Shown here: piece after piece, positions 37,773 to 59,732 of the stretch
How the letters are laid out: each line of letters opens with the position of its first letter
Position numbering within the stretch: position 1 is the first letter of the stretch
NCBI RefSeq assembly: GCF_003626575.1
Contig: NZ_RBDY01000003.1
Location: 62,001 to 126,000 of the forward strand
Source: Streptomyces radicis
Lineage (GTDB): Bacteria > Actinomycetota > Actinomycetes > Streptomycetales > Streptomycetaceae
Length of the DNA stretch: 64,000 nt
Direction of reading: 5' to 3'
Made by a program: the position numbers and the translations under genes
Notes under the pieces: model-generated
What the model was told of the DNA's origin: nothing
The model's database searches: none
Seen by the model: only the letters and a program-made list of their open reading frames with translations

Positions 37773-38133
37773 CGGGGATTCCTGTCTGTTGACGTCTGCT
37801 GTGACGTCCTCATCGTAGAACCCGAGGTGACGGAGGGGCTGTTCGCAGTTCCCCGGCGCGCACTCGGGAGTACCGTGTCGAGGTCGATGGCGGGCCAGCC
37901 CGCGCAGCGCAACCGGTGGCCGCTGCCCACCGTCGCGGCCCTGGCCCGTGCCGCGGGCGCCGCATCGGGTCTGGCCGCCCATCCGCTGAACCGCCCCCGT
38001 CCACGGCGCTCCCCCGGGGGCGCGGTGAACGGGCGCTTTCTGCGTTCTCCCGCACGGCCCAAGGCCCCGCTCGCTAGCATCCGTAGTGATGCATTCCGCG
38101 CCTTGCCCCAGGAATCCGGGCAGGTCAGGAAGC
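37773..38133. other. Gene-free stretch left of the CRISPR array
   Basis: These 361 bases hold no convincing gene; the ORFs that cross it have no ribosome-binding site or family resemblance. It should contain the adh promoter at its left end. The stretch just before the first repeat (about 38080-38133) is the expected leader position but is not AT-rich. It may be degraded coding DNA. Confidence 0.4.
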
Positions 38134-38284
38134 GTGCTCCCCGCAGGCGCGGGGGTGGTCCCTCATGGGCGACGGCGAGACCGGGTGCCCAGTCGTGCTC
38201 CCCGCAGGCGCGGGGGTGGTCCCGGCATTGGCCGCCACAACGTCCTCGGCGAGAAGCGCTCCCCGCAGGCGCGGGGATGATCCC
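38134..38284 (+). CRISPR. Two-spacer CRISPR array, type I-E-like repeats, no cas genes nearby
   Basis: Three 29-base repeats at 38134-38162, 38195-38223 and 38256-38284 are separated by two 32-base spacers, the standard type I-E geometry. Repeats begin GTGCTCCCCGC and end GGTGGTCCC, with stem CCCCGC/GCGGGG. The first two are identical; the third has a C at position 2 and ATGAT for GTGGT, so it is the degenerate, leader-distal end, which places the leader on the left. No cas gene is present in the window. Confidence 0.92.
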
Positions 38285-38396: not shown

Positions 38397-38894
38397 TCAT
38401 GACCTCTGTGTGCGCCGTGCTGCGCCGACAGGCCACACGACATCAACGGGCAGCCCCGCCTCACGCGCCTCGATGACCACGTCAGCCGTACCACCGCCCT
38501 TGCCGCTCGGCGGCGACCCATCCCACACCGCGACGAGGCGGTCGGCGCGGCGCAGCAGTTCCTTGTTCGCGGCTTCGTAGGCGGCGCGATTCGCGGTCTC
38601 GTGGGGCACGGTGTGGACCTCCACCGCGGCCTCCACCAATCTGTCGAAGGTCTCCGCGTGCTCTGGCTTCACCTTCTCGCCACGGTAGTCACGCGAGGGG
38701 ATGATCACCACCAAGCGCCCGCCCGCGCTCAGGATGGCCTCGGCGAACAGGGCGTCGGCGCCAGCGGCGATACAGGAGACCCCCACCAGTTCCTCCGGGG
38801 AGTGGACAGCGAGTACCCCTTGCAGCGCGGCCCTGATCACGGGGACGCTCTCCTCTGTGAGGTCCATGTGGCCGGTGACGGCGATGGTGGTCAT
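38397..38894 (-). CDS. SLOG/Rossmann-like nucleotide-binding protein, partner of the XRE regulator
   Basis: 165 residues. VTGHMDLTEESVPVIRAAL at the N-terminus, GVSCIAAGADALFAEAIL, VIIPSRDY and RADRLVAVWDGSPPSGKGG resemble the SLOG superfamily, Rossmann-like folds that sense or cleave nucleotide-related ligands and often occur in defence or stress systems. It lies 9 bases downstream of the XRE regulator with GAGAGG before the ATG, so the pair is an operon. Function unknown. Confidence 0.65.
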   Translation of the reverse strand: MTTIAVTGHMDLTEESVPVIRAALQGVLAVHSPEELVGVSCIAAGADALFAEAILSAGGRLVVIIPSRDYRGEKVKPEHAETFDRLVEAAVEVHTVPHETANRAAYEAANKELLRRADRLVAVWDGSPPSGKGGGTADVVIEAREAGLPVDVVWPVGAARRTQRS

Positions 38895-38903
38895 CTGTTC
38901 CTC

Positions 38904-40343
38904 TCAGGTGGTCAGCAGTTCGCGGAGGTCGTGCCGGGCCTCGCGCACGGCGATGTTCGCAGTGTGGCCTACGGTGTAGGGGTACAGCCGCCCCAGCTTG
39001 ACGCGTACCTTCTTGGATTCGGTGAGCCGGGCCACCTCGATGGCCCGGTGAGTCCTGTCCACGGCGCTGCGGATGTCTCCGAGGAGCCACGAGCACTCGG
39101 CCAGCCCGGCCCAGTCGAGGGCGTGGCTGCGGGCGGCCTCGGTGCCGCGCAGCTCAACCGCAGCCCCAATCCGCTCGATCGCGGCCTCCGTATAACGACC
39201 CGGCTCATGCCGCGCCAGGCCCAACAGCCGATTCCCCATGGTGCCCGCCAGTTCGGCTGGGCCGAAGTACCGGATCCAGTACGGGTCTTCCTCGACGGGG
39301 CCCGCCTCAGCCAGTGTGGCCGACGCCTGGTCCGCCGCGCGGTGGAATGCCGCGGGTCGTCCCAAAGACGCGTAGGCCCACGCCTCACGTGCATGCAGCA
39401 GGGATCGAACCCGGGCCGCGAGTCTTGCTTCTTGCTGCGCGAGACGAACGAGTTCAAGCGCATCCTGGGGCCGGTCTTGGTCGGGATAGAGCATCTGCCG
39501 CGCCATGCCAGCGAGGATGTTTGCCCCGAACGCCCGGTCGCCGCCCGCGTGCGCGGCCCGCAGGGCGAGGCGGTAGTAGTCCTGCGCGGTCCGGTGCAGC
39601 CCGCTGTCCCACGCCATGCCCGCCGCAGTGCCCGCGAGGTCTGCCAGCACGCAGAACAAGCGGCGCTCAACTGCCGCCGTCTGGTGCTCACCGAGCGCCT
39701 CGGTCACCTCGGCGAGCTGGCCGAGGACCGCCCGGCGTCGGAGCCCTCCCCCGACGTGGTGGTCCCACTGCCGCATCAGCCGCGCGGTCTTCTCAAGTTG
39801 CGTTACCTCGCGGGTGCCGAGGCGGCCGACTCGTCGCCCCTCGCCTGCGGGAGTGGTGTGAAGCCAGCCTTCGAGGGCGTCGAGAAGGGGAGCGCCCACG
39901 GTGATCGTGGTGAGTGCGCGGGATGCGGTGCGTCGGTCTATCACCAGGTCGGTCCTCGTCATACGGGCTGCGGCGGTGACTGCTGCGGCCGGTGTCCAGG
40001 GAGACGACGTCAGGTCTCGGTGAGGCGATGGCGCCTCCACCGGGCCGTCGCTGCGAGGAGTCTCCCACGGCCGTGCAGCGAGGCCGAGGAGCTGTCCAGG
40101 GATGCGGAGTCCATCAGCGATGCGGGCGATGACGTCGTATGAGGTCACCTGATGGGTGCCCTTGATGATGGTGGAGACCTTGCCAGGGGTGAGTCGGCAG
40201 GCCGCCGCGAGTCTGTTCTGACTCAGGCCGCCGTACTTTTTGAGCAGGGAGAAGGCAGCCGCGAAGTCGTGCTCGGCGAGGGCACGTCGTAAGTCCTCCC
40301 GTTCCAACAAGTCCGGGCTGACGAGGCTGTGGGTCGCGTCCAC
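38904..40343 (-). CDS. XRE-family regulator with TPR-like C-terminal region
   Basis: About 479 residues. An HTH near the N-terminus (GGLSQNRLAAACRLTPGKVS) is followed by a linker and a long helical region (about residues 170-479) with repeated Trp/Ala/Leu helices resembling TPRs (TAQDYYRLALRAAHAGGD, HALDWAGLAECSWLLGDI). Such Streptomyces regulators may sense peptides or partners. I chose GTG at 40343 with GGGAGG seven bases upstream; the upstream GTG at 40382 lacks proper spacing. Divergent from a run of short genes. Confidence 0.82.
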   Translation of the reverse strand: MDATHSLVSPDLLEREDLRRALAEHDFAAAFSLLKKYGGLSQNRLAAACRLTPGKVSTIIKGTHQVTSYDVIARIADGLRIPGQLLGLAARPWETPRSDGPVEAPSPHRDLTSSPWTPAAAVTAAARMTRTDLVIDRRTASRALTTITVGAPLLDALEGWLHTTPAGEGRRVGRLGTREVTQLEKTARLMRQWDHHVGGGLRRRAVLGQLAEVTEALGEHQTAAVERRLFCVLADLAGTAAGMAWDSGLHRTAQDYYRLALRAAHAGGDRAFGANILAGMARQMLYPDQDRPQDALELVRLAQQEARLAARVRSLLHAREAWAYASLGRPAAFHRAADQASATLAEAGPVEEDPYWIRYFGPAELAGTMGNRLLGLARHEPGRYTEAAIERIGAAVELRGTEAARSHALDWAGLAECSWLLGDIRSAVDRTHRAIEVARLTESKKVRVKLGRLYPYTVGHTANIAVREARHDLRELLTT

Positions 40344-40403
40344 GGTGGCCACCTCCCAAGGCAGCGCGTAACTGATAGTCACTCTCCCTGCGCGCGCAGT
40401 CTA

Positions 40404-40418
40404 TTACCGTCTCAGTAA
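40404..40418. promoter_or_regulatory. Inverted repeat in the XRE/short-gene divergent promoter
   Basis: TTAC (40404-40407) and GTAA (40415-40418) form a short dyad with a 7-base spacer, in an AT-richer stretch between the XRE gene and the first short gene. Short dyads like this are common XRE operators. Short arms make chance possible. Confidence 0.35.
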
Positions 40419-40490
40419 CCCCTGCCGGTCATCCCCGAATCGTCGATCTGGCGGGAGCCTCGGTATATCAACCATCCGAGGAGAACAGCC

Positions 40491-40676
40491 ATGGCTGGTC
40501 TTACCCCCCGCACGCCCCCGCCCGAGCCCGCGCCGCCGCCGTTGTCCGATGACGAGCCGATGACGGTGATTGTTGGGCGGGATTGTCCGCCCGCGGTGCC
40601 GCTTGCTCTGTGTCTGGGCTGCCCGGAGCGGGTGCGCGACCGCGCCGCCCACGTGGGTTCGGGCGGTGGGTCGTGA
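40491..40676 (+). CDS. Small protein with PPLSDDEPMTVIVGR motif (paralogue at 59529)
   Basis: 61 residues, GAGGAG upstream. The core PPPLSDDEPMTVIVGRDC and PLALCLGC is nearly the same as in the small gene at 59529-59732, including 29 identical bases (40542-40570 and 59583-59611). Three Cys, two in CLGC, suggest metal binding. The rest is low complexity. It overlaps the next gene by GTGA. No known domain. Confidence 0.7.
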   Translation: MAGLTPRTPPPEPAPPPLSDDEPMTVIVGRDCPPAVPLALCLGCPERVRDRAAHVGSGGGS

Positions 40677-41077
40677 GCGAACGCTGTGCGTCGTGCGGGA
40701 CGACGATGCCGCCGTTGACCGTGGTGGCGGTGCACCATGCCGGGTCGGGTGGCGGGTGGACGCATCGCGCGTGCGCGCGCTGCCTGGCGCGTGAGCGGCT
40801 GATCCCGCTCGTCTTCCACCCGCTGCGCCACGACGGGTCACGGCTGACGTACCCGGAGATCGTTCCGGGTGAACTGGTCGCCACGCTCGCGCCGTTGGGC
40901 GAGTCCCCCGTGCTCGCCGCCCCGATCGGTCGGCTGCTGGCCGCCGTGGCCCGCACGAAGGACCGCACGCTCGACGCCGACCAGCGGCACGCCGCCCACG
41001 ACGCCGCCCGCGCCGCCGTCGCACGGCTGCGGGAGGCCGCCCGGCAGGAAAGCGGCACCGTTCGGGAACCACGGTGA
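40673..41077 (+). CDS. Small zinc-ribbon-like protein of unknown function
   Basis: 134 residues starting at GTG. Two Cys pairs, CASC near the start and CARC about 24 residues later, with HRA between, look like a zinc ribbon. The C-terminal half is helical (LLAAVARTKDRTLDADQRHAAHDAARAA). Overlaps both neighbours by 4 bases, so it belongs to the same translationally coupled set. No family recognised. Confidence 0.65.
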   Translation: MSERCASCGTTMPPLTVVAVHHAGSGGGWTHRACARCLARERLIPLVFHPLRHDGSRLTYPEIVPGELVATLAPLGESPVLAAPIGRLLAAVARTKDRTLDADQRHAAHDAARAAVARLREAARQESGTVREPR

Positions 41078-41346
41078 ACGGCGCGATCGATTTCTCCCTC
41101 CGCGACCCCGACCGAGGCAACGACCGGCCCGTCAACGGCCGCTGCTGGCTCGGCTGCGACCCGCAGGTCATTCAGCCGGTCATCTGGATCGGGCCCGTCT
41201 CCATCGCAGGGCCGAACGGGATCGCCACCGCACCCGCCTACGCCTGCCCTCGCTGCGTGCGCCGCCTGTACGCCATGGCCCGCGCCGACGAGATCGAACG
41301 CGACCGCCCGCCGCACCTGACCGAGCAGCCGCACCACCACCCCTGA
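41074..41346 (+). CDS. Small cysteine-containing protein of unknown function
   Basis: 90 residues starting at GTG in a GTGA overlap. Cys residues are in RCWLGC and CPRC, again suggesting a metal site. The middle is an apolar beta-like stretch (VIQPVIWIGPVSIAG). No membrane helix or known domain. A 107-base gap follows before the next short gene. Confidence 0.6.
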   Translation: MNGAIDFSLRDPDRGNDRPVNGRCWLGCDPQVIQPVIWIGPVSIAGPNGIATAPAYACPRCVRRLYAMARADEIERDRPPHLTEQPHHHP

Positions 41347-41453
41347 CCCCCACCCATCACGACAAGCTTCCGGAGTCCGCCATCTTCTGGCCATTCCTCT
41401 TCCGGCCCCCGTCCCACCGGCACAACGAGCGCCCGCCGAAGCGACATGCGGCG

Positions 41454-41786
41454 ATGTCCGCGACGGATGTGCGACGCGTCGAGGTCACCACGGCATCCAT
41501 CCTCACCGGGGACGTACTCACCATCGGCGAGCGCCACTTCAAGGTCATCACCCGCACCCGCGTCCACGGCGGGATCAAGCTGAGGCTCACCTCGGGCCAC
41601 CTGTTCGTCATGCCCCACCGCACCACCCTCACCATCTGGCGCGCCGACCCACCCGGCTTACGCCCCCGCTCCTTCTGGGAGACAGCCCTCCGCCCACCCC
41701 CGCCGTCGCGGACGGAGATCGTCGCGCAGGTCGTCGTCGGCTGCGCCCTCGTCATCGTCATCGCCCTGGCGGTGATCGCACGATGA
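41454..41786 (+). CDS. Short protein with a beta-rich domain and C-terminal membrane helix
   Basis: 110 residues. An N-terminal domain (about 10-65: VTTASILTGDVLTIGERHFK, TLTIWRA) is followed by a Pro-rich linker and a C-terminal helix, IVAQVVVGCALVIVIALAVIA, making it tail-anchored. The domain resembles that of the next gene (KLGDQLVVGGRPYTV, TVLWASR), so the two look like tandem paralogues. Overlaps the next gene by ATGA. Confidence 0.6.
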   Translation: MSATDVRRVEVTTASILTGDVLTIGERHFKVITRTRVHGGIKLRLTSGHLFVMPHRTTLTIWRADPPGLRPRSFWETALRPPPPSRTEIVAQVVVGCALVIVIALAVIAR

Positions 41787-42037
41787 ACCCCACCGGGATG
41801 GTCGCGATCGAGATCACCGCCACCACGGTCAAGCTCGGCGACCAACTCGTCGTCGGAGGACGGCCCTACACCGTGTGCGACATGAGCGCGCTCGCCAGCG
41901 GCGGCAAACTGCTGCACTTCCACGGAGGCGAGTCATTCCACATGGGCTGCTTCACCGTCCTGTGGGCCAGCCGCCACATCTCCCAACTCCCCGGCTTCAT
42001 CCCACCCCGCCCCAGACGTTACGAGAGAACACGGTAG
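41783..42037 (+). CDS. Short protein, tandem paralogue of the preceding domain
   Basis: 84 residues. TATTVKLGDQLVVGGRPYTV and FHMGCFTVLWASRHI align with the N-terminal part of the preceding gene, but the membrane helix is missing. It is therefore soluble, and with the anchored copy might form a heterodimer. Coupled to the upstream gene by ATGA. Ends 48 bases before the convergent glycosyltransferase gene. Confidence 0.6.
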   Translation: MNPTGMVAIEITATTVKLGDQLVVGGRPYTVCDMSALASGGKLLHFHGGESFHMGCFTVLWASRHISQLPGFIPPRPRRYERTR

Positions 42038-42085
42038 CGAAGGCACGGGCACACCCCGACCGACGCGGCGCCGATGCCATCCCGA

Positions 42086-43234
42086 TCACCGCCGCGCCGT
42101 CATCCCCGCCCCGCGCACCCCCGCGTACACCCGCTCCAGCGCGTCAAGCACGCCGTCAAGCGTGAAGCTCTCGCGCACCAGCTCGAACGCCGCGACCGAC
42201 GCCTTCTCGTTGGCCGCCGGGTCGAGCAGCTCGAGCACGGCCGACGCGACGGCGGAGCCGTCGGGGATCACCCGGCCCGCGCCCGCGCGCGCCACATCGG
42301 GCGCGAGTCCCGTGGTCTCGGTCACCACGACCGGCGTGCCCACCGACATCGCCTCGAGCACCGAGACCGAGAACGCGTCCTGGATCGACGGCAGCACGAA
42401 GACATGGGCGGAGCGGAGGAGTTGGAGCACCGCGTCGCGCCCCTCGACCGGGCCCACCTGGTCGAGCGCCCCGCGCACGCCCAGCGCGTCGGCCAGCGCG
42501 AGGGTGTCGGCGAGCGCGCCGGTGTCGGGCCCGGCCAGCACGAAGCGCGCGTCGGGGTGCCGTTCGAGCACGGCGGGCATCGCGGCCACGAAGTCCTCGG
42601 GCCGCTTGCCCGCCTGCACGCGCGCGAGGTAGAGCACGGTGGGAGGGCCTTCGAGGGTGCGCCGTTCGGCCTGCGGGGGAACGCCGTTGACCAGCCGGTG
42701 CTGTGGCCCGATCGGGGCGGGCGCGACCACGGCCGCGGTCTCGCGGCGCTCGCGCTCGGTCAGGTACAGGACGGCGTCGGCCCGGCGCAGCACGCGCCGC
42801 ACGCCAAGGGCGTCCACGAGCTTGGCCACCGGCTTGTCCGTGGGATCCACCATGCCGTGCGTCTGGAGCACCAGCGGCGTGCCCGCCGCGACGGCGGCCA
42901 GCGCGAACGGCAGCGTGATCAGGTCCCGCATCAGATGGACGTGCACGACGTCGGCGGAGCGCGCGTAGGCGCCCGCCCTGGCCAGCAGCGCGGGCGAGGT
43001 GATGCCGCTGACCTCGAAGCGGGGCAGCACGTGCCGGGCCTGGAAGAGCCGCACCGGCACGCCGTCGACCTCGCGCGGCAGCGCGCCGCGGGAGGGGAAG
43101 CCGTCGCCGAGCGCGACGAGCGTGGCCCGCCACCCGCGCTCGCGCAGGCCGCGGCACTGGCCGAGCGCCACCCTGGTGGGGCCGCCGAACGCGTGGGTGG
43201 GGGTGTGGAGCGTCACCACCTGGAGGATCCTCAC
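42086..43234 (-). CDS. Family 4 glycosyltransferase
   Basis: 382 residues, GT-B fold. HTPTHAFGGPTRVALGQCRGL forms the N-terminal loop, VHVHLMRDL the middle, and VLYLARVQAGKRPEDFVAAM with FVLPSIQDAFSVSVLEAMSV the nucleotide-sugar-binding C-lobe. The EX7E first Glu is Asp (QDAFSVSVLE). GTG start with GGAGG eight bases upstream. Part of the surface polysaccharide locus right of the island. Confidence 0.9.
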   Translation of the reverse strand: MRILQVVTLHTPTHAFGGPTRVALGQCRGLRERGWRATLVALGDGFPSRGALPREVDGVPVRLFQARHVLPRFEVSGITSPALLARAGAYARSADVVHVHLMRDLITLPFALAAVAAGTPLVLQTHGMVDPTDKPVAKLVDALGVRRVLRRADAVLYLTERERRETAAVVAPAPIGPQHRLVNGVPPQAERRTLEGPPTVLYLARVQAGKRPEDFVAAMPAVLERHPDARFVLAGPDTGALADTLALADALGVRGALDQVGPVEGRDAVLQLLRSAHVFVLPSIQDAFSVSVLEAMSVGTPVVVTETTGLAPDVARAGAGRVIPDGSAVASAVLELLDPAANEKASVAAFELVRESFTLDGVLDALERVYAGVRGAGMTARR

Positions 43235-57809: not shown

Positions 57810-58070
57810 ATGACGCTACGGTTCATCGGAGTGGACCCGGACACAGGACAGCAGGGTTCACCAACTATCTGGATCGACGACGCAAGCGGCGAGATCATCG
57901 TGCAGGGATGGAAACCGAGCCCTGATCTCGAGGCTGCGTGCGCCGCGTCCCCGGCCCCGGGGCATACCCCGGGCATCCCGGCCCATGAGGCTGTCGTCCG
58001 TATCCCGGCACGCAGGGTGCCGATGCTGAGGGAGGCATGCGATGTCGCAGAGCGAACCCGGCTTTCTTGA
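57810..58070 (+). CDS. Small protein of unknown function in a DUF6879/XRE module
   Basis: 86 residues starting MTLRFIGVDPDTGQQGSPTI, with AGGAG upstream of the ATG. The start looks like a beta strand and turn, and EIIVQGWKPSPDLEAACAA follows. It overlaps the DUF6879 gene by 29 bp, so the two are translated together. Proteins of this form are often encoded beside DUF6879 and XRE-DUF5753 genes in Streptomyces. Function unknown. Confidence 0.7.
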   Translation: MTLRFIGVDPDTGQQGSPTIWIDDASGEIIVQGWKPSPDLEAACAASPAPGHTPGIPAHEAVVRIPARRVPMLREACDVAERTRLS

Positions 58071-58572
58071 TCTGCTGGCCAGCGCCCGGCACACGGCGAT
58101 GCATCTTGAGATGCGCGACATCTACGACGTCGGCGATGAGGCCGCTGACTTCGAGCGCTGGCAGCGCACCGGTGAGCGGGACGTCGACCCGGCATCGGAG
58201 TACTGGGCGCCGTGGGTTGGTCTGATCGAGGAGACCGTGGCTCGCGGTGTCGCCGTTCGCCGGGCCCGCGTGGTGTCGGAGCCGGTGAGCGACTACATCC
58301 GGTACGAGCACGCCGGGGCAGCGGTGAACGTCGCCGCTGGTGAGGACGTGCGATGGTTGCCCAGGCGGCGTGCGTCCGACCTCCTGCTCCCTGGGAACGA
58401 TCTGTGGGTCTTCGACGAGACCGCAGTGTTGTTCAACCACTTCGATGGGCACGGGAATTGGTCCTCGCCGAAGTGGGAGGTGCGCACCGAACCTGACCTG
58501 ATCGCCCAGGTCCGCGGCTCGCTCAGGGCCGTGTGGGACAGGGCCGTGCCCCACGAGCAGTACAAGGTCTGA
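58042..58572 (+). CDS. DUF6879 family protein
   Basis: 176 residues. The core ARHTAMHLEMRDIYDVGDEA, FERWQRTGERDV and VRRARVVSEPVSDYIRYEH is typical of DUF6879, a domain found only beside XRE-DUF5753 regulators in actinobacteria. GGGAGG precedes the ATG. It contains several Trp and a C-terminal helix. The family is thought to be a partner of WhiJ/AbaA-like regulators; its function is not established. Confidence 0.85.
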   Translation: MSQSEPGFLDLLASARHTAMHLEMRDIYDVGDEAADFERWQRTGERDVDPASEYWAPWVGLIEETVARGVAVRRARVVSEPVSDYIRYEHAGAAVNVAAGEDVRWLPRRRASDLLLPGNDLWVFDETAVLFNHFDGHGNWSSPKWEVRTEPDLIAQVRGSLRAVWDRAVPHEQYKV

Positions 58573-58591
58573 GCCGCTCAGCGATCCGCCG

Positions 58592-59440
58592 ATGCCCGCG
58601 AACCCGTCATCGTCCGCCCAGGAAGCGCGCCAAGTCGTCGCAGGGAGACTACGTGACCTACGGCTGGACGCCGAGATCACAGCCCGCGAGCTGGCGTCCC
58701 GCTGTGGCTGGAGCGAGGCCAAGTCCTCTCGCATCGAGCACGCGAAGACGGCGCCATCGGACGCGGACATCCGCGCTTGGTGCACCGCCTGCGGGGCCGC
58801 CGACCAGGCCGCTGAGCTGATCGCGGCCAACCGGCGGGTCGACGAGATGTACGTGCGCTGGCGGCGGCTGCACGGGCACGGGATGCGGCGCGCGCAGGAG
58901 GCGGTCCTGCCGCTGTACGAGCGGACCCGGCACTTGAGGGTCTACGTGTCCAACGTGGTGCCCGGCATTCTCCAGACCGAGCAGTACGCGACCGCCCTGC
59001 TGTCGACCATCGCGCGGTTTCAGGGCACCCCGGACGACGCCCCGCAGGCTGCGGCTTCACGTATCGAGCGTTCGCAGGTGTTGCATCGGGGCCACCACAC
59101 CTTCGCGTTCCTGTTGGAGGAGACGGTGCTGCGGTACCGGATCGGGGACGCCGAGACGATGGCCAACCAACTCGGATACCTACTGGCGGTGATGGCGCTG
59201 CCGAACGTCAGCCTGGGCGTCATCCCGTTCTCGGCGCACCGCGCGTTGTGGCCGTTGGAGGCGTTCTACCTCTTCGATGACCAGCGCGTCAGCTCGGAGT
59301 TGCTGACGGCTGCGGTGAACGTCTCGGCCTCGAGTGAGATTCAGGTATACGCGAAGGCGTTCGCCGAGCTTGCCGGGATGGCGGTGCACGGCGCTCGCGC
59401 ACGGCGTCTGATAACGGATGCTATCGCCGCGCTCGGGTGA
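58592..59440 (+). CDS. XRE-family regulator with DUF5753 domain
   Basis: 282 residues. The HTH is ITARELASRCGWSEAKSSRI near residues 25-50, followed by the DUF5753 domain: LRVYVSNVVPGILQTEQYAT, HTFAFLLEETVLRYRIGD and VSLGVIPFSAHRALWP. Such WhiJ-like proteins regulate development or accessory genes with small partners. It follows the DUF6879 gene after 19 bases. Confidence 0.92.
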   Translation: MPANPSSSAQEARQVVAGRLRDLRLDAEITARELASRCGWSEAKSSRIEHAKTAPSDADIRAWCTACGAADQAAELIAANRRVDEMYVRWRRLHGHGMRRAQEAVLPLYERTRHLRVYVSNVVPGILQTEQYATALLSTIARFQGTPDDAPQAAASRIERSQVLHRGHHTFAFLLEETVLRYRIGDAETMANQLGYLLAVMALPNVSLGVIPFSAHRALWPLEAFYLFDDQRVSSELLTAAVNVSASSEIQVYAKAFAELAGMAVHGARARRLITDAIAALG

Positions 59441-59528: not shown

Positions 59529-59732
59529 ATGAGCCAGTACATCCCTGAGTGGGCACGCGAGGATCACACCGCCCCACCCCCTTTGTCCGATGACGAGCCG
59601 ATGACGGTGATCGTCGGGCGGGAATGTCCCCCGGCGACGCCGCTCGGCCTGTGCCTCGGCTGCCGCGACCGCCTACACGCTCCCGCACCCCCGGATCGCC
59701 GCGCGGCTGCGCGCGGGGCCCGGCTGCCGTGA
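59529..59732 (+). CDS. Small protein with PPLSDDEPMTVIVGR motif (paralogue of 40491)
   Basis: 67 residues, GGGAGG before the ATG. The core APPPLSDDEPMTVIVGREC and PLGLCLGC repeats the small protein at 40491-40676. N- and C-termini differ. Both sit near XRE regulators about 19 kb apart. It lies between the regulator and hemC. Two Cys in CLGC and one in REC may bind metal. Confidence 0.7.
   Translation: MSQYIPEWAREDHTAPPPLSDDEPMTVIVGRECPPATPLGLCLGCRDRLHAPAPPDRRAAARGARLP

Follow-up and report, generated by a model that had tools for sequence, protein, structure and literature searches.

Small-gene cassettes beside HTH regulator loci of Streptomyces radicis: a candidate homogenized and exchangeable output

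INTRODUCTION

In antibiotic-producing actinomycetes, few kinds of unexplained gene are as numerous as those for small proteins next to XRE regulators. One such group of genes lies in a 64,000-nucleotide stretch of the Streptomyces radicis genome (assembly GCF_003626575.1, contig NZ_RBDY01000003.1, positions 62,001 to 126,000), which is referred to here as the window. Five short genes (g1 to g5) face an HTH regulator in this stretch, and an initial annotation, made from the DNA letters, had described them as coupled genes and a candidate undescribed system. What are these genes, and do they belong with the regulator beside them? In the text below, G000 is the S. radicis genome, other G numbers are further genomes, L numbers are loci, and W is the window locus.

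RESULTS

Five small genes in two coupled blocks

The five genes and their neighbors are listed in Table 1. As the initial annotation had stated, the genes diverge from the HTH regulator, and their ends overlap as GTGA (g1/g2), GTGA (g2/g3), and ATGA (g4/g5). The overlaps did not run through the whole set; g3 and g4 are separated by 107 bases, and the genes thus form two coupled blocks. The protein features described earlier were all found. CxxC-type motifs are present in g1 (CLGC), g2 (CASC and CARC), and g3 (CPRC and the wider CWLGC), with the full patterns of g2 and g3 read from alignments of 11 and 7 copies, respectively, and the N terminus of g2 is likely to be zinc-ribbon-like. When only g4 and g5 were compared by BLASTP, a common domain was detected (30% over 83 aa, E 3e-6). 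A hydrophobic tail is found in g4 only, where the mean Kyte-Doolittle value reached 2.96 over 19 residues, compared to 1.37 or less in the other four genes.

Table 1. Features of the regulator and small-gene locus (window positions)
Feature	Position	Strand	Description
SLOG-like protein	38397-38894	-	165 aa; directly downstream of regulator
HTH regulator, NsdA family	38904-40382	-	Putative input module; NCBIfam NF053720, HTH_31
Divergent promoter/operator region	40383-40490		40397-40438 conserved with G287
g1	40491-40676	+	61 aa; proline-rich start, three cysteines; first codons vary between loci
g2	40673-41077	+	134 aa, GTG start; CxxC...HxxCxxC N terminus
g3	41074-41346	+	90 aa, GTG start; CxxxC...CxxC; absent or truncated at several copies
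g4	41454-41786	+	110 aa, start as chosen by the gene caller; g5-type domain and C-terminal hydrophobic tail
g5	41783-42037	+	84 aa; predicted small beta-barrel

The earlier statement that no known function fits the genes was also borne out in the libraries searched, since g1, g2, g3, and g5 stayed under the curated cut-offs in Pfam and NCBIfam, and the PADLOC defense models matched none of g1 to g5. For g4, the libraries scanned were PHROGs and PADLOC. PADLOC also had no match for the SLOG-like protein and gave weak HTH/control-protein matches for the window regulator. Pfam searches found no DUF397 domain in g1, g2, g3, or g5 (E 1) and no AbaA-type HATPase_c domain in g1 to g3, g5, the regulator, or the SLOG-like protein.

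Structure prediction gave a six-stranded barrel for g5 (pLDDT 81, with a range of 58 to 81 among five models), modeled from two sequences. The model superimposed on domain I of Staphylococcus aureus EF-P with a VIA Z of 7.2 and 1.6 Å over 54 residues, and a VIA Z below 8 may reflect a common arrangement. The best Foldseek E was 6e-3, and no sequence match to solved chains was found (best E 0.58). The g5 protein is predicted to be a small barrel nearest to domain I of EF-P and eIF5A. The model of g2 was poor (pLDDT 58) and had a helical C terminus. EF-P is a factor for proline runs. A PPP run in g1 (PAPPPL; window 40491-40560) is kept in nine copies, and the pairing of this run with an EF-P-like model of g5 is possibly due to chance.

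The cassette is present in many copies in one genome

When the 1,547-base stretch that carries g1 to g5 was compared with the S. radicis genome via blastn, 37 matches were found, and 16 of them were longer than 500 bases with identities of 79 to 95%. At least one of the five genes was encoded at 19 of 20 fetched loci (tblastn, E 1e-3); L027 had none at this threshold. The gene content of each copy was determined from gene calls, alignments, and tblastn. All five genes were present at the window, L009, and L011, and g2 to g5 were present at L015. Copies at L012, L013, and L016 were without an intact g3, L010 carried g1 to g3, L017 and L018 carried g1 and g2, L022 carried g2 and g4, L024 carried g1 and g3, L019 and L021 carried g4 and g5, and L020 carried g5. 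The L014 copy was broken, with g2 in two frames and g4 split by an IS605-like gene, and L023, L025, and L026 held fragments. Because the whole set was found at three loci only, many copies were partial, and some (L014, L023, L025, and L026) were broken, the products are not obviously one obligate complex. The five-gene order is not a unit conserved across species; it is complete at only three places in its own genome, where further loci hold parts of it, and it is nearly missing from other genomes.

The gene inside g4 at L014 (5649-6857) encodes 402 aa, has a close relative at L142 (1273-2481), and looks like an IS605-type OrfB. A g1-like piece was also found within the window at 59569-59664, where it follows another locus of the HTH type (58042-59440) that by eye looks DUF5753-like.

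The upstream 120 to 130 bases and the first 8 to 15 codons of g1 were locus specific, likeness began in the proline-rich stretch of g1, and the shared DNA ended at the g5 stop codon or just past it. The exceptions followed regulator kinship: L010 and L012, whose regulators are 57% alike, have a common promoter, and L009 and L024, whose regulators are 48% alike, have a common promoter and common first codons. At four cassette copies, g3 or g5 is followed by a long, strong hairpin (-52 kcal/mol, z -2.25), as at L016 7645-7724, and this hairpin had no occurrence in the genome outside those four copies.

All five genes are under purifying selection, with pooled pN/pS values of 0.54 (g1), 0.47 (g2), 0.31 (g3), 0.52 (g4), and 0.27 (g5). 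These values, and the preservation of the frames in copies elsewhere in the genome, are more than chance would give and confirmed the five genes as real. The synonymous differences between the window and L009 to L015 were small (pS 0.07 to 0.26). In seven copies with g2, g4, and g5 (87 sites), site incompatibility was 0.484 compared to a permuted mean of 0.557, and 0 of 2,000 permutations were as low; nearby informative sites were more compatible than permuted ones, which is a sign of recombination between copies.

Two further observations were made in the same genome. HTH genes behind the cassettes at L010 (7816-8691) and L024 (4830-5711) have 90% protein identity, and the regulators upstream of these cassettes belong to different families; we read these genes as another homogenized piece. 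At L012 5421-5640, two pieces that match the window flanks, one the right (42061-42211, 87%) and one the left (37818-37882, 88%), are adjacent and in permuted order, which could reflect a circle or a tandem copy of the window segment. A mobile element with defined ends was considered and rejected, since gene calls revealed no terminal repeats or transposase at the copy ends and the single permuted case at L012 was too little.

Diverged regulators and accessory enzymes adjoin the copies

The adjoining regulators were extracted at ten copies (window, L009, L010, L011, L012, L013, L015, L016, L018, and L024). All ten had an HTH above a Pfam cut-off, and they are about 400 to 490 aa in length. The part C terminal to the HTH is probably TPR-like and ligand binding; among these regulators, Pfam TPR gave a single weak match (L018). 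Nine of the regulators were 24 to 60% identical at the protein level where BLASTP aligned them, and the window regulator aligned with none of those nine (BLASTP, E 1e-3). A profile of the nine had 14 matches in the genome, 12 near full length and two in two pieces each. The cassette adjoins 9 of these 14 regulators, the same nine from which the profile was built, and the five outside the profile set had no cassette match nearby.

The window regulator matched Pfam HTH_31 at 32.1 bits (cut-off 27) and the NsdA family model NF053720 at 244.2 bits (cut-off 75, E 3.7e-72); its score with the NsdA equivalog NF050130, 236.1 bits, was under the cut-off of 830. The neighboring SLOG-like protein reached 13.4 bits with Pfam YpsA (SLOG), below the cut-off of 27.7, and the name SLOG is therefore a lead only. 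Relatives of this protein adjoin cassette copies at L022 (81%) and L018 (73%). Three 30-base direct repeats with 61-base spacing (two exact, one 87%) lie just downstream of the SLOG-like gene at window 38133-38284, and we read them as a short CRISPR-like array.

Accessory enzyme genes recurred beside the regulators across species (L010, L013, L107, L111, L113, L114, L117, and L173). These included NUDIX genes (L010/L107, 58%), HAD-like genes (L117/L111, 47%), and SLOG-like genes (window/G287, 70%; L114, 40%), all labeled by eye, as well as flavoprotein genes (L013/L117, 82%; L113, 55%) identified with the Pfam Flavoprotein model.

Locus-specific palindromic operators were also considered. Of 10 loci, only 4 had palindromes that were better than those of dinucleotide shuffles (as good in 3 of 300 shuffles at L009, 0 of 300 at L010, 0 of 300 at L011, and 2 of 300 at L024), and those at L009, L011, and L024 may be terminators because they lie close after the regulator stop codon. 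At the remaining loci, the counts per 300 shuffles were 233 (W, where no palindrome in 40383-40490 was significant), 58 (L012), 146 (L013), 43 (L016), 248 (L017), and 41 (L018). Palindromes were not used as proof.

The cassette is rare outside its own genome

A g2 profile had 14 matches in the S. radicis genome, none in 24 of 24 genomes of the same genus, and a weak match in one (G038) of 16 further genomes of the same search. Larger searches, in which the best ten candidates per genome were scored, found g2 relatives in 7 of 391 other genomes of the genus and in 1 of 395 other genomes of a phylum sample (E 1.9e-4). Among the seven, G202 had the best match (E 6.6e-32), and the other six (E 8.7e-7 to 5.1e-4) were short zinc-ribbon-like stretches. 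Scans of GTDB contigs with g5 and g2 profiles gave no confirmed match under a requirement for exact short peptide patterns, by which near genomes may be missed. No g2 or g5 relative was found in plasmids and phages (tblastn), and no g2 relative was found in viral contigs.

The g4/g5 domain was wider, with relatives in 122 of the 391 other genomes, mostly as one small gene each; by our reading of the gene calls, many of these loci are beside a GntR regulator. The tailed g4 form was found elsewhere only in G136 (E 2.9e-31).

Related regulators in other genomes adjoin other small genes

The regulators themselves had close relatives in other species. Those of G202 were 79.5%, 79.0%, and 81.4% identical to the regulators of L011, L012, and L018, respectively; relatives of the L011 regulator were found in G022 (72%), G021 (73%), and G012 (65%), and a relative of the L012 regulator was found in G136 (61%). 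A frame related to the G000 regulators was present in 11 of 13 further G202 loci fetched. In a tree of 26 regulators, which were chosen for their loci and did not include the window NsdA regulator, G000 and G202 sequences interleaved, and G000 as one clade was rejected (p-AU 9e-36). Five pairings of a G000 with a G202 regulator were well supported; in the fifth of these (L009/L106), the cassette of G202 lies close to the regulator and not behind it.

At three pairs, likeness continued past the regulator stop codon into intergenic DNA (L012/L117, E 6e-8; L011/L115, E 0.003; L018/L116, E 0.007), and several of these between-species matches were short. After this stretch, no match better than E 0.001 was found at any of the three. 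In the case of L013/L113, a flavoprotein gene follows the regulator in both genomes and the divergent small genes differ. The putative input without the cassette was seen best at the counterpart of the window locus in G287. There, a SLOG-like gene (69.6%) adjoins an NsdA regulator (64.7% over aa 11 to 489) in the same order as in the window, and the promoter segment 40397-40438 is conserved (76% over 42 bases, E 3.2e-4). No g1 to g5 was found at this locus (tblastn, E 0.01; best blastn E 0.041), and a gene of the 200-aa family described below for G202 lies downstream.

Other genomes had sets of their own. In G202, a tiny cysteine-rich gene was found at 15 places with 74 to 100% identity and was almost without matches in four other genomes, and a gene of about 200 aa was found at several loci. 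The G022 set was found at six places in that genome. The G202 200-aa gene (196-aa query) was present in 109 of 392 genomes, including G000, which has eight copies at other loci. Some outputs are thus widely shared, a finding that speaks against a private cassette in every genome and leaves privacy shown for the G000 cassette only.

On these comparisons, the view of a single unknown operon is best replaced by that of a multicopy set beside differing regulators, with other small genes beside the orthologous regulators elsewhere. Part of the initial description holds, in that no known function fits in the libraries searched; the five-gene set as such is not conserved across species.

DISCUSSION

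The explanation that we somewhat favor is that conserved regulator inputs drive a swappable, homogenized output cassette of small genes. The cassette, which probably has no promoter of its own, would be copied to many regulator loci of one genome and homogenized between them. Each locus would keep its input: an HTH regulator, often with an accessory enzyme (SLOG, NUDIX, or flavoprotein), together with the promoter and first codons specific to that locus. Each regulator may sense its own signal and switch the same output. The products (three proteins with cysteine pairs, a barrel with a membrane tail, and a soluble barrel) may work jointly, perhaps in a small complex linked to the membrane. Between lineages, the cassette would be exchanged while the regulator, accessory enzyme, and promoter stay in place. 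The parts of this explanation drawn from sequence are the multicopy cassettes, the locus-specific 5' ends, the recombination, the purifying selection, and the other small genes behind orthologous regulators. Since orthologous regulators in other species adjoin cassettes of unrelated genes, the products are presumably outputs that need not fit the regulator.

The main alternative is that the small proteins partner with the adjoining regulator, which they would release or trigger by binding to its C-terminal part, a mechanism proposed for BldB/DUF397-WhiJ and for toxin-antitoxin pairs. An XRE regulator with a small downstream gene is a known arrangement in the excerpts of PMC10364602 and PMC10294661 used here, and an HTH regulator adjoins the cassette at ten of our loci. 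We found near-identical cassettes beside regulators of 24 to 60% identity and unrelated small genes beside orthologues of 65 to 81% identity, and regulator and cassette thus give no indication of having co-evolved. Also against this alternative, the excerpted text of PMC10364602 describes 14 Streptomyces coelicolor DUF397 proteins as non-toxic when overexpressed. We regard the partner explanation as unlikely.

We give somewhat less credence to a selfish, transposase-less cassette that spreads behind the promoters of regulator loci with no benefit to the cell. Such a cassette would be in keeping with the high copy number in one genome, the near absence from relatives, the partial and broken copies, and the rearranged piece of both window flanks at L012. 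It is harder to reconcile with purifying selection in all five genes, with copy ends at which no transposase, integrase, or terminal repeat was seen, and with the lack of relatives in the plasmid, phage, and viral collections. An old family, in which the ancestor had a cassette at every locus, relatives lost it, and strong constraint kept identity high, is improbable despite the distant g4/g5-domain relatives in other genomes of the genus (mostly one each), since regulators at 24 to 60% and cassettes at 79 to 95% DNA identity argue against inheritance at each locus with loss elsewhere, as do the small synonymous differences and the absence of g2 from all 24 same-genus relatives.

The explanation of conserved inputs and a swappable output can be extended, tentatively and with a good deal of doubt, to a general network in Streptomyces-type genomes, in which conserved HTH sensor-regulators (many inputs) drive one lineage-specific cassette (one output) that is kept uniform by recombination and exchanged wholesale between lineages. 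If so, the target of a regulator could not be transferred between species by orthology, and a small protein would not have to be an antitoxin or a ligand of its neighbor. The combination of homogenization within a genome and turnover between species would also hint at a role in conflict or self-recognition.

Searches of open-license PMC papers found none on a homogenized, exchangeable small-gene cassette. The closest known kind is the XRE regulator with a small protein, namely, the XRE-DUF397 and BldB-WhiJ-AbaA loci. Like the XRE-DUF397 pairs (Scr1/Scr2 and others; excerpts of PMC10364602), the loci described here combine an HTH regulator with an adjoining small protein gene in many copies per genome. 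They differ in that g1, g2, g3, and g5 are not DUF397 proteins, several genes are coupled, the regulators at the main copies have a long C-terminal part that is not DUF5753, and near-identical cassettes lie behind diverged regulators. The window regulator belongs to the NsdA family by profile (NF053720), although it does not reach the NsdA equivalog cut-off (NF050130). The predicted fold of g5 may resemble the KOW-like barrel of EF-P/eIF5A domain I, although there is no sequence match and no other EF-P domain is present here.

The BldB-WhiJ-AbaA loci, as excerpted from PMC10294661, are likewise multicopy and combine an Xre regulator with a small protein and one additional gene. In g1 to g3 and g5, neither an AbaA nor a BldB domain was found. 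According to the same excerpts, the BldB-WhiJ-AbaA paralogues are an old, diverged family, whereas the cassettes described here are homogenized and almost confined to one genome. Small proteins of one BldB-WhiJ-AbaA locus cross-talk with other loci (excerpts of PMC10294661). WhiJ9 acts on the neighboring iosA, and this action supports the idea that a regulator drives its neighbor.
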